Positions 16,785-61,503 of a stretch of DNA of 64,000 bases are shown here, piece by piece. This DNA is from Halorubrum sp. DM2 (GTDB lineage Archaea; Halobacteriota; Halobacteria; Halobacteriales; Haloferacaceae): positions 3,361,773-3,425,772 of the forward strand of contig NZ_LR594487.1 of the NCBI RefSeq assembly GCF_901686465.1, written 5' to 3'. Within the stretch, counting starts at the first letter, position 1; the number at the start of each line of letters is the position of its first letter. The notes beneath the pieces are model-generated. The model ran no database searches and was not told where the DNA came from. It saw only the letters and a list, made by a program, of their open reading frames with translations. The position numbers and the translations under genes are program-made.

Positions 16785-17681
16785 TCACGGTTCGGGGGCT
16801 CCGTTCGGCTCGAACGCTTCGGCGTGATCGCTGACGAACGCCGAGAGCGACCGCGGGGGACGGCCGAGCACGCGTTCGGCGTCGCGGCTGACCCGGCCGG
16901 CGAGGCCGAGGCGCGCGGTCGTGTAGATGACCGCCTGTGCGAGCGCGAACGACGGCGAGACGCCGCGGCGGGTCGACGCGACGACGAACTCGACGAGCCC
17001 CGGGTCGGCGTACGAGATCTCCCGGCCCAGCGCGTCGGAGAAGACCGCCGCGGCCTCCTCGTACGTGAGCGCCGCCGGACCGGTCACGTCGTACGCGCGG
17101 TTCCGGTGTTCGGGGCCGACGAGCGCCTCGACGCCGACCGCGGCGACGTCCCTGGCGTCGACGAAACTCGTCTCGCCGCCGCCGGCCGGAACGAACAGCT
17201 CGTCCCGCTCGGCGACGTCCGACCGGTGGACCTCGGAGAAGTTCTGCATGAAGAAGGAGGCCCTGAGGAAGGTGTACGAGAATCCGCCGTCTTCGAGGTG
17301 TCGTTCGATGCGGCAGTGGGGCAAGATCGGGTTCTTCTCCGCGCCGAGCACCGAGAGGAAGACGACGTGCTCGACGCCGACCCGCTCGGCCGCGTCGACG
17401 GCCGGCGTGATGTGCCGGTGAACGCGAGCCATCTCCGGCGGTCGGATTAAAAAGAGCGCGTCGACGCCCTCGAAGGCCGCCCCCCACGTCTCGGGTCTCT
17501 CGAAGTCGAACTCGATCGGCTCGACTGCCCCCGGCAGCGACTCGCGGGCCCGATCGACGGACCGCACTCCGGCGCGGACCGCGGCGTCGATGTCGGTCGC
17601 CGCGTCGACCTCCCCGAGTCCCCGCGCGACGTGGCCGCCGACGGTCCCGGTCGCGCCGGTGACGAGTATCGACCTCGTCAC
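16785..17681 (-). CDS. NmrA-like NAD(P)-binding protein
   Basis: A 298-residue atypical short-chain dehydrogenase-like protein. The N-terminal T-G-A-T-G-T-V-G-G binds the dinucleotide, and the fold matches NmrA/azoreductase-like quinone-reductase relatives (V-F-L-S-V-L-G-A, then F-L-R-A-S-F-F-M-Q-N). A classic Tyr-x-x-x-Lys pair is not evident, typical of NmrA-type redox sensors or quinone reductases. Its ATG overlaps the stop of the upstream membrane-protein gene by 4 nt, making it the third gene of a tight operon that faces an HxlR regulator. It probably responds to or detoxifies a redox-active compound; this is inference from context. Confidence 0.85.
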   Translation of the reverse strand: MTRSILVTGATGTVGGHVARGLGEVDAATDIDAAVRAGVRSVDRARESLPGAVEPIEFDFERPETWGAAFEGVDALFLIRPPEMARVHRHITPAVDAAERVGVEHVVFLSVLGAEKNPILPHCRIERHLEDGGFSYTFLRASFFMQNFSEVHRSDVAERDELFVPAGGGETSFVDARDVAAVGVEALVGPEHRNRAYDVTGPAALTYEEAAAVFSDALGREISYADPGLVEFVVASTRRGVSPSFALAQAVIYTTARLGLAGRVSRDAERVLGRPPRSLSAFVSDHAEAFEPNGAPEP

Positions 17682-18088
17682 CGGTCGGCCCTCCAGTAGA
17701 CGAGCGCGCCGACCGACGCCGCGGCGACGACCACGTGCATCGCCATGAGGACGACGACGGCGAGCGGGGTCGCGGCCGGGTCGACCGCGAGCAGCGCGAG
17801 GTCGGGAACGAACGAGACGAGCAGGACGCCGGCGGCGATCCGGAGAAACGTCGGTTCGGGGTCACTGACGAACCGACCGAGGAGCCGGTAGACGACGGTC
17901 GCCCCGACCGCGCCGACCGCCGACAGGAACGCGACGGGCGGGACCGTCAGCGCGCGGAGGTCGGGGGCGACGGCCAGCGCGTCCGCGGCGAGGACGAGCG
18001 CCACGTTTGCGAGGACGGCGAGCGCGACGGTGAGCGCGCCCCGCACCGGGAGGGACGGCGAACGAGGGGCGTCGTGCGCGCGGGTCAT
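17678..18088 (-). CDS. Four-helix membrane protein (DUF6069-like)
   Basis: A 136-residue integral membrane protein with four hydrophobic segments. It resembles the small DUF6069-type proteins found near NAD(P)-binding genes, though I assign this from memory. The open frame extends upstream, but the ATG at 18086-18088 overlaps the stop of the preceding gene as ATGA and immediately precedes the first helix, so it is chosen. It is the middle gene of the three-gene operon controlled from the HxlR promoter region. Function is unknown; it could be a transporter partner or redox-associated membrane protein. Confidence 0.75.
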   Translation of the reverse strand: MTRAHDAPRSPSLPVRGALTVALAVLANVALVLAADALAVAPDLRALTVPPVAFLSAVGAVGATVVYRLLGRFVSDPEPTFLRIAAGVLLVSFVPDLALLAVDPAATPLAVVVLMAMHVVVAAASVGALVYWRADR

Positions 18089-18744
18089 CGCGCGTCCGTC
18101 ACCTTCGGCATCTCGCCGACGTACAGGTCGTCTTCGAGGCAGTCGAGCACGAAATCGGCGACGTTCGCGCGGGCGGCGGCGTCGCCCACCCCGAGTCCGA
18201 GGTCGCCCCCGTGTTCGAACTCGCCGGTGTGGTCGCCCTCCGTGAGCCGCGGCGCGCGGACGACGGTCCACCTGCGGTCGCCGGCTCTGACCAGTTCGAC
18301 GTGGTCGCGGGCGTCTTCGAGCGCCGCTCGGGCCAGTAGCTTCAACAGCGCTCCCATCACCTTCCCGCCGAGCGTCACCGACTCGCCTTCCTCGCGGACG
18401 GCCGCGCCGACCAGCGTCACGAGCCGCTCGACGTCGTGTTCGTCCATCGCCGCGAGCAGGTGGCCGGCGGCGACGGTCAGCAGGTCTTCGGGGCCGTCGG
18501 AGGTCTGCCCGAGGACGCTGACGACGGCGTCGACCGGGTCGCCGTCGCCGCCGACCGCCCGCGCGACGTCCGCGGCGTCGGTCACGTCCCCCTGAATCAC
18601 GGTGACCCGAGCGTCTTCTCGGACCCCCGCGGAGAGCCTCGCCGGGTCCCGGGCGAAGGCGACGACTTCGTGGCCGCGTTCGAGCGCCTGTTCGACGAGC
18701 GGACCCCCCGTCCGACCGGTCGCACCGAATACTACGATACGCAT
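18085..18744 (-). CDS. NAD(P)H-binding SDR-family protein
   Basis: A 219-residue protein with the dinucleotide motif G-A-T-G-R-T-G-G near the N-terminus and a second motif V-V-S-V-L-G-Q. This matches the NAD(P)H-binding (PF13460-type) group that includes biliverdin-reductase-like and flavin/quinone reductases. It is the first gene of the operon (SDR, membrane protein, NmrA-like) joined by 4-nt overlaps. The ATG at 18742-18744 is preceded by a minus-strand CTATATCC box and an 18-bp palindrome shared with the divergent HxlR gene, so it is probably controlled by that regulator. Confidence 0.85.
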   Translation of the reverse strand: MRIVVFGATGRTGGPLVEQALERGHEVVAFARDPARLSAGVREDARVTVIQGDVTDAADVARAVGGDGDPVDAVVSVLGQTSDGPEDLLTVAAGHLLAAMDEHDVERLVTLVGAAVREEGESVTLGGKVMGALLKLLARAALEDARDHVELVRAGDRRWTVVRAPRLTEGDHTGEFEHGGDLGLGVGDAAARANVADFVLDCLEDDLYVGEMPKVTDAR

Positions 18745-18779
18745 ACCGGGTAGACGCCGGCAGATCGGATATAGATGTG

Positions 18780-18797
18780 ACTTCGAATATTCGAAGT
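18780..18797. promoter_or_regulatory. 18-bp perfect palindrome, likely HxlR operator
   Basis: ACTTCGAATATTCGAAGT is a perfect palindrome in the 117-nt gap between the divergent SDR operon and the HxlR gene. It lies just upstream of the operon's TATA-like box (minus-strand CTATATCC), where a dimeric winged-helix regulator would block or recruit the general factors. HxlR regulators bind such dyads in their own promoter regions, so self-regulation is likely. Confidence 0.7.
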
Positions 18798-18861
18798 GTA
18801 GACCTCTTAGCGGCTGATAGACCAAAGATACAATATCACAAGTGTTCAGCTCCGGACGAGG

Positions 18862-19275
18862 ATGACAGGATCCAGCGATCCGCCCGACATACCCGGACTG
18901 AGCGCCGGACTGTCCCGAGAGGAGGCCGTCGCCCTGCGCGAGTCGTTCGACGACGAGGAACGGGAGCGCATCGACCGCACGGTCGCGGAACTGCTTGACC
19001 TCCTCGGCAAGACCCACACGATGGCGGTGTTGAGCGCGTTCGCGTTCGCCGAGGGACCGCTCCGGTTCAGCGACCTCGAATCCGAACTCGACGTCCCGCC
19101 GAACACCCTCTCGACGCGGCTTCGAGACCTGACCGATGCGGGACTCCTCGACCGACGGGCCTACGACGAGGTCCCGCCCCGCGTGGAGTACACGCCGACC
19201 GAGCCGGCGGAATCGCTGTTCCCCGTCTTCGGGCACCTCCACCACTGGGCGATCGAGTACGAACTGTCGCCGTAG
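18862..19275 (+). CDS. HxlR-family transcriptional regulator
   Basis: A 137-residue winged-helix protein. The core runs from about residue 40 to 130: V-A-E-L-L-D-L-L-G-K-T-H-T, the recognition helix region (P-P-N-T-L-S-T-R-L-R-D-L) and the wing (P-P-R-V-E-Y-T-P-T), all hallmarks of the HxlR/MarR-like family. There is no cysteine, so it is unlikely to sense by thiol chemistry as some bacterial HxlR redox sensors do. It is divergent from an operon of two NAD(P)-binding proteins and a membrane protein, which it probably regulates through the palindrome at 18780-18797. It converges with fumC. Confidence 0.9.
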   Translation: MTGSSDPPDIPGLSAGLSREEAVALRESFDDEERERIDRTVAELLDLLGKTHTMAVLSAFAFAEGPLRFSDLESELDVPPNTLSTRLRDLTDAGLLDRRAYDEVPPRVEYTPTEPAESLFPVFGHLHHWAIEYELSP

Positions 19276-22899: not shown

Positions 22900-22915
22900 C
22901 CTACTTTTATGAAGT

Positions 22916-24130
22916 ATGGCGGAGGTGCGTCGCACGGTCGTCGTCAAACTCGACGTCGACGACAGCGACGCGACTCTCCTCCACGAAACCATCGAGGAGT
23001 ATCTGTGGGCGTGTAACTACGTCGTCCAAGACGCATGGCAGGACGACTACAAACCTACATCCAAGAACAAACTCCACGACCGGACGTACTCTGACGTGCG
23101 CGAACAGACGCGCCTCCAAGCGAATCTCGTTCAATCCGCACGCAACCGCGCCGCCGAAGCCATTAAAGGCGTTATCGCCCGCTGGCAGGACGGCAAGAAA
23201 GCGTCGCAACCGCACTTCACGACGCCTTCCGTCCGGTACGACAAACGAAGTGCGACGTTCCACGACGACCACGTCTCCCTCTCCACGGTGAGCGGACGTA
23301 TCGAAGCTGAATACGTCCTCCCGCCGGCGGGAGACAACCCACAAACGAAGTACCTCTGTAACGACGAGTACGAGGTCACGGATGCGACGCTTCAGTACCG
23401 CGACGCGACGGACACCTTTTTCCTCCACATCGGAACGAAGGCCGACGTGGAGTCCGAAATACCGGAGGAAGGCGACGCCGAGAACAGCACAGTCCTCGGC
23501 GTCGACCTCGGTATCGAACAGATCGCCGTCACGTCGACCGGACAGTTCTGGAGCGGCGGCTACCTCACCCACCGTCGTCAAGAGTACGAGCGCGTCAGTG
23601 GCGATCTACAGCGGACAGGTACGGAGTCAGCCCACCGAACGATCGAACGAATGGGGGACCGAGAGACGCGGTGGGTAGAGGATTACCTCCACCGTATCTC
23701 GAAAGCTATCGTCCAAGAAGCCGTCGCGCACGGGTGTGACCGGATAGCGTTCGAGGAGTTAACGGACATCCGCGACCGGATGCCGGGTGTAAAGAAGTTC
23801 CATGCGTGGGCGTTTCGACGCCTGTACGACTACGTGGCGTACAAGGCGGAAGCGGAAGGTATCGACACCACACAGGTAGACCCGGCGTACACGTCCAAGC
23901 GGTGTTCGAAGTGCGGGACGACGCTAGACGAGAACCGCCGGTCGCAAGCGAAGTTCTGTTGCCAGAAGTGCGGCTACGAGGTCAACGCAGATTACAACGC
24001 GGCGAAGAACATCGGATTTCGGCTACTCCGTGCGGAGCAAAAGTCTCCGCACGGAGGGGCGATCAGTCACCTCGCCCTCAAGTCGGGGACGCTGAACGTG
24101 AACGGCGGCTACTCGCCTGCCTCTGAATAG
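22916..24130 (+). CDS. tnpB: TnpB RNA-guided nuclease
   Basis: A 404-residue TnpB, the ancestor-type of Cas12 nucleases. Known family members use an omega RNA from the element's right end to cut DNA next to a transposon-adjacent motif. All three RuvC residues are present: Asp197 (G-V-D-L-G-I-E), Glu280/281 (A-F-E-E-L-T-D) and Asp359 (N-A-D-Y-N-A-A-K-N). The zinc finger has Cys330/Cys333 (C-S-K-C) and Cys349/Cys352 (C-Q-K-C). The protein is full length and therefore probably active. It sits alone in the element, with a strong TATA region upstream. Its 3' coding end overlaps the predicted guide RNA. Confidence 0.95.
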   Translation: MAEVRRTVVVKLDVDDSDATLLHETIEEYLWACNYVVQDAWQDDYKPTSKNKLHDRTYSDVREQTRLQANLVQSARNRAAEAIKGVIARWQDGKKASQPHFTTPSVRYDKRSATFHDDHVSLSTVSGRIEAEYVLPPAGDNPQTKYLCNDEYEVTDATLQYRDATDTFFLHIGTKADVESEIPEEGDAENSTVLGVDLGIEQIAVTSTGQFWSGGYLTHRRQEYERVSGDLQRTGTESAHRTIERMGDRETRWVEDYLHRISKAIVQEAVAHGCDRIAFEELTDIRDRMPGVKKFHAWAFRRLYDYVAYKAEAEGIDTTQVDPAYTSKRCSKCGTTLDENRRSQAKFCCQKCGYEVNADYNAAKNIGFRLLRAEQKSPHGGAISHLALKSGTLNVNGGYSPASE

Positions 24131-60642: not shown

Positions 60643-61503
60643 TCAGTCCGGCCGGTGGACCTCGCCGTCGCGCGAGTCGGCGTCCTTCCGACGGACCGCG
60701 GCCGCCGCGTTGTTCGCGTCGTAGCCGAAGAACACGTCCTTCGCGTACGTCTCCGCGACCTCGGTCGCGTGGATCAGGTCGTCGACGTCGACGTCGACGG
60801 CGTACAGCTCCAGCGAGAACGGCGTCTCCGGCGGCGCGCCGTGGAGGTCGTAGTCGCCGCCGAGCCGCGACCGGAACCCCCGAGCGATCGTCTCCAGCCA
60901 GTAGGTCGTCGCGTACGCCGTGTCGTACAGCGGGACGACGAACTCGTCGACGTGGTCGGCCAACCGGTCGAGGTCGAGACCGGCGCGCTCGTAGAGGTGG
61001 TCCGGGTAGGGATCGGGGTACAGCGTGAGCAGCAGGCGACCGGGGACCAACTCCGCCGCCTCGGCGACAAACTCGGTGATGACGTCGGCGCGCCAGTCGG
61101 CGAACTCGTCGCGGTCGCTCTCGGCGAACAGGCGCTCACAGCGGTCGCAGTGACAGAACCCCTCGCGGGGGAACCCCACGTCGTCGAGGCGCACGTCGCC
61201 GTTCGCGGCGGCGCAGTCCGCGATGATCTCCAGCAGCCCCTCGCGGTACTCCGGGTGGGTCGGGCAGATGTACGCCCAGTCGAAGTACTCGCGGTCGCGG
61301 GTCGCCGGCTCGCCGCGCTCGTCGACCGGAACGAGGTCCTCGTTCTCGCTCGCGGCGGCGTTGTCGCCGAAACACGACACCATGTTCACGGCGTTCGGCA
61401 GGGGCTCGGCCGCGCGGCCCGTGACGTCTTTGACCTCGTAGAAGCCGAGGTCGAACGGCTCCATGTCGACCTCGTCGGCGTTGCGCGTGACGACCCCGTA
61501 CAT
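60643..61503 (-). CDS. Conserved protein with glycosidase-like barrel features
   Basis: A 286-residue soluble acidic protein of uncertain function. The segment W-A-Y-I-C-P-T-H-P-E-Y-R near residue 77, the R-L-D-D-V-G-F-P-R motif and the cysteine cluster F-C-H-C-D-R-C-E near 118 recall hypothetical TIM-barrel glycosidase-like proteins with a conserved C-x-C-x-x-C. A later L-T-L-Y-P-D-P-Y-P-D-H motif may form an active-site loop. A TTTTTACC box lies 24-32 nt before the ATG at 61501-61503. Confidence 0.7.
   Translation of the reverse strand: MYGVVTRNADEVDMEPFDLGFYEVKDVTGRAAEPLPNAVNMVSCFGDNAAASENEDLVPVDERGEPATRDREYFDWAYICPTHPEYREGLLEIIADCAAANGDVRLDDVGFPREGFCHCDRCERLFAESDRDEFADWRADVITEFVAEAAELVPGRLLLTLYPDPYPDHLYERAGLDLDRLADHVDEFVVPLYDTAYATTYWLETIARGFRSRLGGDYDLHGAPPETPFSLELYAVDVDVDDLIHATEVAETYAKDVFFGYDANNAAAAVRRKDADSRDGEVHRPD

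Follow-up and report, generated by a model that had tools for sequence, protein, structure and literature searches.

A conserved palindrome between an HxlR-family gene and a divergent redox operon in haloarchaea: a predicted regulator binding site

The hxlR locus and its palindrome

The window (the whole stretch of DNA that was analysed, 64 kb in length) encodes at 18862..19275 (+) an HxlR-family winged-helix regulator of 137 aa (PF01638, 61.5 bits against a cut-off of 20.8), which is the predicted binder of the palindrome described below. By sequence comparison the protein matches HxlR (7bze) and YodB (5hs7), with VPP-VEY aligned to HxlR. Three genes lie on the opposite strand: an NAD(P)H-binding protein of the atypical SDR/NmrA type (gene 1, 18085..18744 (-), PF13460, 120.9 bits), a DUF6069 membrane-type protein (gene 2, 17678..18088 (-), PF19545, 50.5 bits) and an NmrA-like NAD(P)-binding oxidoreductase (gene 3, 16785..17681 (-), PF05368, 74.3 bits). 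Because genes 1 and 2 overlap by 4 nt, and genes 2 and 3 likewise, they appear to form a single operon. The arrangement is that of an HxlR/NmrA-type reductase divergon, with hxlR and the NAD(P)H-binding reductase genes facing away from each other. The nearest solved structures for gene 1 are NADPH flavin / biliverdin-IX-beta reductase, while the relatives of gene 3 among solved structures are SimC7, triphenylmethane reductase and YtfG. DUF6069 was not mentioned in the literature searched, which lay mostly outside subscription journals.

The 117-nt gap separating hxlR (+) from the NAD(P)H-binding gene (-) contains ACTTCGAATATTCGAAGT at 18780-18797, a perfectly self-complementary 18-bp dyad that can be written as ACTTCGAA-TA-TTCGAAGT and is assigned to neither strand. 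It directly adjoins the putative TATA-like box of the enzyme operon (TCTATATC, 18768..18775 (-), -24 to -31 from the ATG), and the corresponding putative BRE position, just upstream of this box, touches the dyad. Relatives keep a TATACTT-type block next to the dyad, with the spacing unchanged. A possible BRE/TATA of hxlR (ccaaagatacaa) was placed at 18822..18833 (+), 29-40 nt before the hxlR ATG, and a similar block is present in close relatives. The initial annotation had described a perfect palindrome between divergent genes and beside the TATA box of the operon, which is indeed what lies here. It had also proposed a search for further copies in the genome. This search returned the dyad once only in 3.45 Mb, even when up to three mismatches were allowed, and no second match at this threshold in the 64-kb window.

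The same annotation held that such a perfect palindrome is not expected by chance in GC-rich DNA. For the window as a whole this is wrong, because 100 dinucleotide shuffles of it gave on average 1.65 perfect palindromes of at least 18 bp per 64 kb, and at least one in 85 of the 100 shuffles. The real window has two (18780-18797 and 60780-60799). The latter is a low-complexity, 20-bp palindrome of CGTCGA repeats; no perfect palindrome in the window is longer. The claim stands only for the 117-nt gap, which is AT-richer (49% GC): here the event is rare, occurring in 7 of 20,000 shuffles.

Occurrence across the order and linkage to the gene pair

The search for relatives of the regulator comprised a genome-contig scan (11 loci), 59 relatives and 392 order-level genomes. 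An HxlR match at E<=1e-25 was found in 74 of the 392 genomes; some matches below 50% identity were left out of the locus comparison. Scanning all 392 genomes with the pattern ACTTCGAANNTTCGAAGT (ACTTCGAA-NN-TTCGAAGT, at most one mismatch) yielded 36 places in 34 genomes, covering 24 of 95 genera, against 2 of 392 genomes for the reversed-pattern control. Haloferax elongans, Haloferax larsenii and Halorubrum coriense are among the species in which the unit occurs. An HxlR-family gene or fragment adjoins 31 of the 36 places, including all 18 exact ones. The dyad at this threshold occurs in 28 of the 74 genomes with an HxlR match compared to 6 of the 318 without. Many of the 46 HxlR-positive genomes without it have more distant homologues, or sites with two to three mismatches.

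Not every copy of the dyad is accompanied by an intact unit. Beside exact or one-mismatch dyads hxlR looks frameshifted or truncated in G056 (L140), in G092 (L135, where the dyad is exact) and at one of the two sites of G375 (L137), while an exact dyad in L059 has no partner gene that could be found. At four places (L108, L116, L117 and L118) none of the four genes was detected within about 1.5 kb. A second copy of the operator plus TATA block was observed in G382 (L136:2853-2870), about 6 kb from the HxlR unit of that genome and 36 nt before an SDR-like start; the gene after this carries an F420H2-dependent quinone reductase domain (31 bits against a cut-off of 22).

Two tests were run on genes unselected for the motif, one centred on the SDR gene and one on HxlR (at least 60% identity). 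The SDR-type gene was found in 36 of the 392 genomes at E<=1e-45. A dyad with at most three mismatches precedes 27 of the 29 with a divergent hxlR (the result for G382 being taken from the motif-locus analysis), but only 2 of the 7 without. The reading given initially, that of a predicted HxlR operator which relatives with the same gene pair should keep, thus came through in 27 of 29 cases. The two failing pairs are G077, where both genes are present and the site is degenerate (ACTTCGAGAACCAGTAGT), and G259, which has a different dyad (ACTACGATCCCCCGTAGT) at another distance. Among the seven genes without a divergent hxlR, those of G320, G162 and G397 have a distant or same-strand HxlR. The stretches of G073, G233, G234 and G219 gave no convincing HxlR, G219 having a single weak match of 18 bits. 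The sites with up to three mismatches in this group belong to G397 and G233, the latter being imperfect and without HxlR in the 4.2-kb stretch searched.

The HxlR-centred test covered 41 orthologues; partial HxlR rows (L137, L026, L012, L011 and L135) and rows without upstream DNA (L010 and L021) were left out. The dyad (at most three mismatches) is present in 34 of 35 orthologues with divergent partner genes against 1 of 6 without (Fisher p 5e-5, relatedness ignored). At 44-60% identity the motif is mostly gone, with 5 of 31 rows containing it; of these, L084, L087 and L088 appear to be off-position matches.

On the HxlR tree, rows lacking both the partners and the dyad (L071, L073, L069, L049 with L060, and the long-branched L022) are scattered over several positions within the clade that has the dyad. 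With few alignment columns and some weak forks, the tree resolves these losses only partly. For the tree labels, L096 and the 13 DUF6069-paired rows were set by hand to 'no motif', their near matches being off-position or another dyad. In these 13 rows (L079-L082, L084, L085, L087-L092 and L097), where hxlR is divergent to a DUF6069 gene, another conserved block with consensus AAGTTAGAAGTTATGGAGTAACT lies beside TATACT. In L022, a 23-bp unit with TACTTCGA in it occurs in 3.3 tandem copies at 504-579, upstream of a 50%-identical HxlR homologue; the array looks like repeated half-sites.

Geometry and symmetry of the predicted site

The distance from the dyad to the SDR ATG is 35-37 nt in all 27 dyad-bearing SDR loci with a divergent hxlR, where G289 is counted from an in-frame ATG nearer to the site than the aligned start (which would give 60). 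On the other side there is no such constancy, the projected hxlR start being 53-185 nt from the conserved block. In 37 rows scored by motif, half of the 16 non-central positions (8) never vary, and variation is greatest at the central pair of bases and at the base that follows it; because these rows were chosen by motif score, the figures describe the site rather than prove it. Translation and transcription commonly start together in haloarchaea. An enzyme mRNA starting at or near the ATG would place the dyad at about -36 to -53, with its inner edge touching the BRE.

The centres of CTTCG and CGAAG in the dyad are 11 bp apart. If these are the half-sites, an HxlR homodimer would place one recognition helix in each of two adjacent major grooves at these positions, a spacing that would fit a dimer of the HxlR/YodB type. 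According to the accessible text of PMC8063818, YodB prefers TACT-N7-AGTA and each of its HTH motifs meets one of two consecutive major grooves; the part of PMC7835342 available gives a distance of 34.8 A between the recognition helices of HxlR on DNA. The outer TACTT...AAGTA blocks were considered as a second dyad and rejected. Although L065 and L070 have TACTCCTA...TAGGAGTA, the left block resembles a TATA box elsewhere, and therefore an outer dyad is not claimed.

In four loci both halves of the dyad have changed in a matching way: L020 (ACTTTGAAGTGTCAAAGT), L164 (ACTACGATCCCCCGTAGT), L096 (ACTCCTAATATTCGGAGT) and L098 (ACTCCGGGCTTCTGGAGT). The HxlR proteins of the last three are only 45-54% identical to that of the window. 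Among 62 loci without a TTCGAA-type dyad (within two mismatches), the frame ACTxy-N8-y'x'AGT was found in 4, whereas 200 rounds of shuffling gave 0.23 on average and never more than 3. Matching changes are what would be expected of a symmetric dimer site, but they are few and no more than suggestive. A residue of the recognition helix (TLSxRL) also differs between groups, but the independent changes are too few to claim a code.

Regulation of the operon and comparison with known systems

The dyad, its constant geometry, its repeated linkage to the HxlR clade and its usual absence where the partner genes are missing are plain observations. Since many relatives keep it at one and the same distance from the enzyme genes, it is very probably the site at which the regulator binds. 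Based on these comparisons we are confident that the palindrome would serve as the operator of a one-regulator, one-operon switch, in which a local and mostly cysteine-free HxlR homodimer would control the enzyme operon. Another, perhaps global, transcription factor might bind the dyad instead, the adjacency of hxlR being incidental. The four places without any of the four genes and the imperfect site of G233 point in this direction, but a site that is single in its genome, the HxlR neighbour at most places and the general lack of a dyad before SDR genes without a divergent hxlR make it improbable. Far less credible still is a functionless chance dyad: palindromes of this length are common in shuffled windows, but this one is rare in its own gap, recurs in about a quarter of the sampled genera with sequence and place conserved, and keeps its spacing to the enzyme gene wherever that was measured. 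The idea that the dyad forms a hairpin or terminator in RNA deserves equally little credence. Inverted repeats can fold in RNA, yet the dyad lies upstream of both putative promoters, has no loop and is constrained relative to the enzyme promoter.

As to the sign of regulation, we somewhat favour repression by blocking of TFB, because the site touches the putative BRE from upstream. Once bound, the dimer would act mainly by denying TFB/TBP access to the promoter of the NAD(P)H-binding - DUF6069 - NmrA operon. In the other direction, HxlR bound beside the BRE could recruit TFB/TBP to the enzyme operon, so that the dyad would be an upstream activating element; this has a smaller though considerable chance of being correct. 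The HxlR of Bacillus subtilis is reportedly a positive regulator, to judge from the title of one study, and the constant spacing to the enzyme start would suit activation. So would two haloarchaeal precedents, as far as the accessible text of each paper goes: Haloferax OxsR activates from sites 5' of BRE/TATA (PMC9426492), and TrmB motifs generally lie upstream, in keeping with activation by TrmB when bound there (PMC10817205). Against it, the edge of the dyad appears to touch the BRE, as in most repressed TrmB targets, since in Haloarcula hispanica the motifs of TrmB-repressed genes overlap the BRE with one named exception (again from the accessible part of PMC10817205). Self-control of hxlR through the dyad is possible, at a spacing that is not conserved.

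Under the HxlR operator reading, a small-molecule signal rather than a conserved thiol would change binding. The initial annotation had noted a regulator without cysteine, and the 137-aa protein contains none, including the conserved N-terminal sensing cysteine of the thiol-sensing DUF24 subgroup. The available portions of PMC7835342 and PMC8063818 describe the role of this residue in YodB, HypR and HxlR (Cys11). Cysteine is likewise absent from 30 of 37 dyad-bearing HxlR relatives and no cysteine column is common to more than two, so the usual DUF24 thiol switch would not apply; the earlier view that the signal is probably not thiol oxidation is consistent with this. Our guess is a quinone or another redox-active electrophile, given the resemblance of the enzymes to NADPH flavin / biliverdin reductase and to YtfG / triphenylmethane reductase. 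The operator copy before the F420H2-dependent quinone reductase-type gene in L136 hints at quinone reduction as a theme. More tentatively, this haloarchaeal HxlR branch may have dropped thiol sensing and read its ligand otherwise, keeping the ACT-N12-AGT frame while positions 4-5 change in both halves together with the regulator. If so, the changed dyads form a natural series from which the recognition code of archaeal HxlR proteins could be read.

With this analysis an anonymous HxlR gene and a group of uncharacterised redox genes, patchy in their distribution within the order, become a single regulatory unit that can be tested and whose binding site and geometry are predicted. If the lack of cysteine in most of these regulators also holds functionally, the question arises what they sense without the usual DUF24 thiol. 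Judged by titles and the start of abstracts, no paper is evidently on this unit among those retrieved for HxlR with haloarchaea, for Haloferax and for archaeal palindromes (few subscription journals being covered).

Overall, the system is an ordinary, known kind of switch: a local winged-helix regulator with a predicted operator. An HxlR-family gene stands beside an NmrA-type NAD(P)H-binding reductase also in QorR - qor2 of Corynebacterium glutamicum and ytfH - ytfG (qorB) of E. coli. The pairing is shared with the present locus, and YtfG is a sequence relative of gene 3; here, however, the operon consists of three overlapping genes, including a DUF6069 gene, and the regulator is free of cysteine.

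The likeness to YodB/HxlR/DUF24 of Bacillus subtilis lies in a winged-helix dimer, whose binding is here a prediction, on a short dyad beside the promoter of redox or detoxification enzymes. The half-site centres of the YodB site are 11 bp apart in the accessible text of PMC8063818, as they are here if CTTCG/CGAAG is the half-site. In contrast, the half-site sequence differs (here an ACT-N12-AGT frame), there is no N-terminal sensing cysteine and the promoter is an archaeal BRE/TATA. The YodB-type operator TACT-N7-AGTA is absent from the 117-nt gap; the one exact copy that the window contains, at 22902-22916, is remote from hxlR. This copy sits at the start of a TnpB-like gene (22916-24130, with OrfB_IS605 and Cas12f1-like TNB domains). 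With haloarchaeal OxsR and TrmB the unit would share a motif position relative to BRE/TATA that is linked to the sign of regulation, as far as the available text of PMC9426492 and PMC10817205 describes it. Both differ in belonging to the TrmB rather than the HxlR family and in having several to many targets, and OxsR is a thiol sensor.
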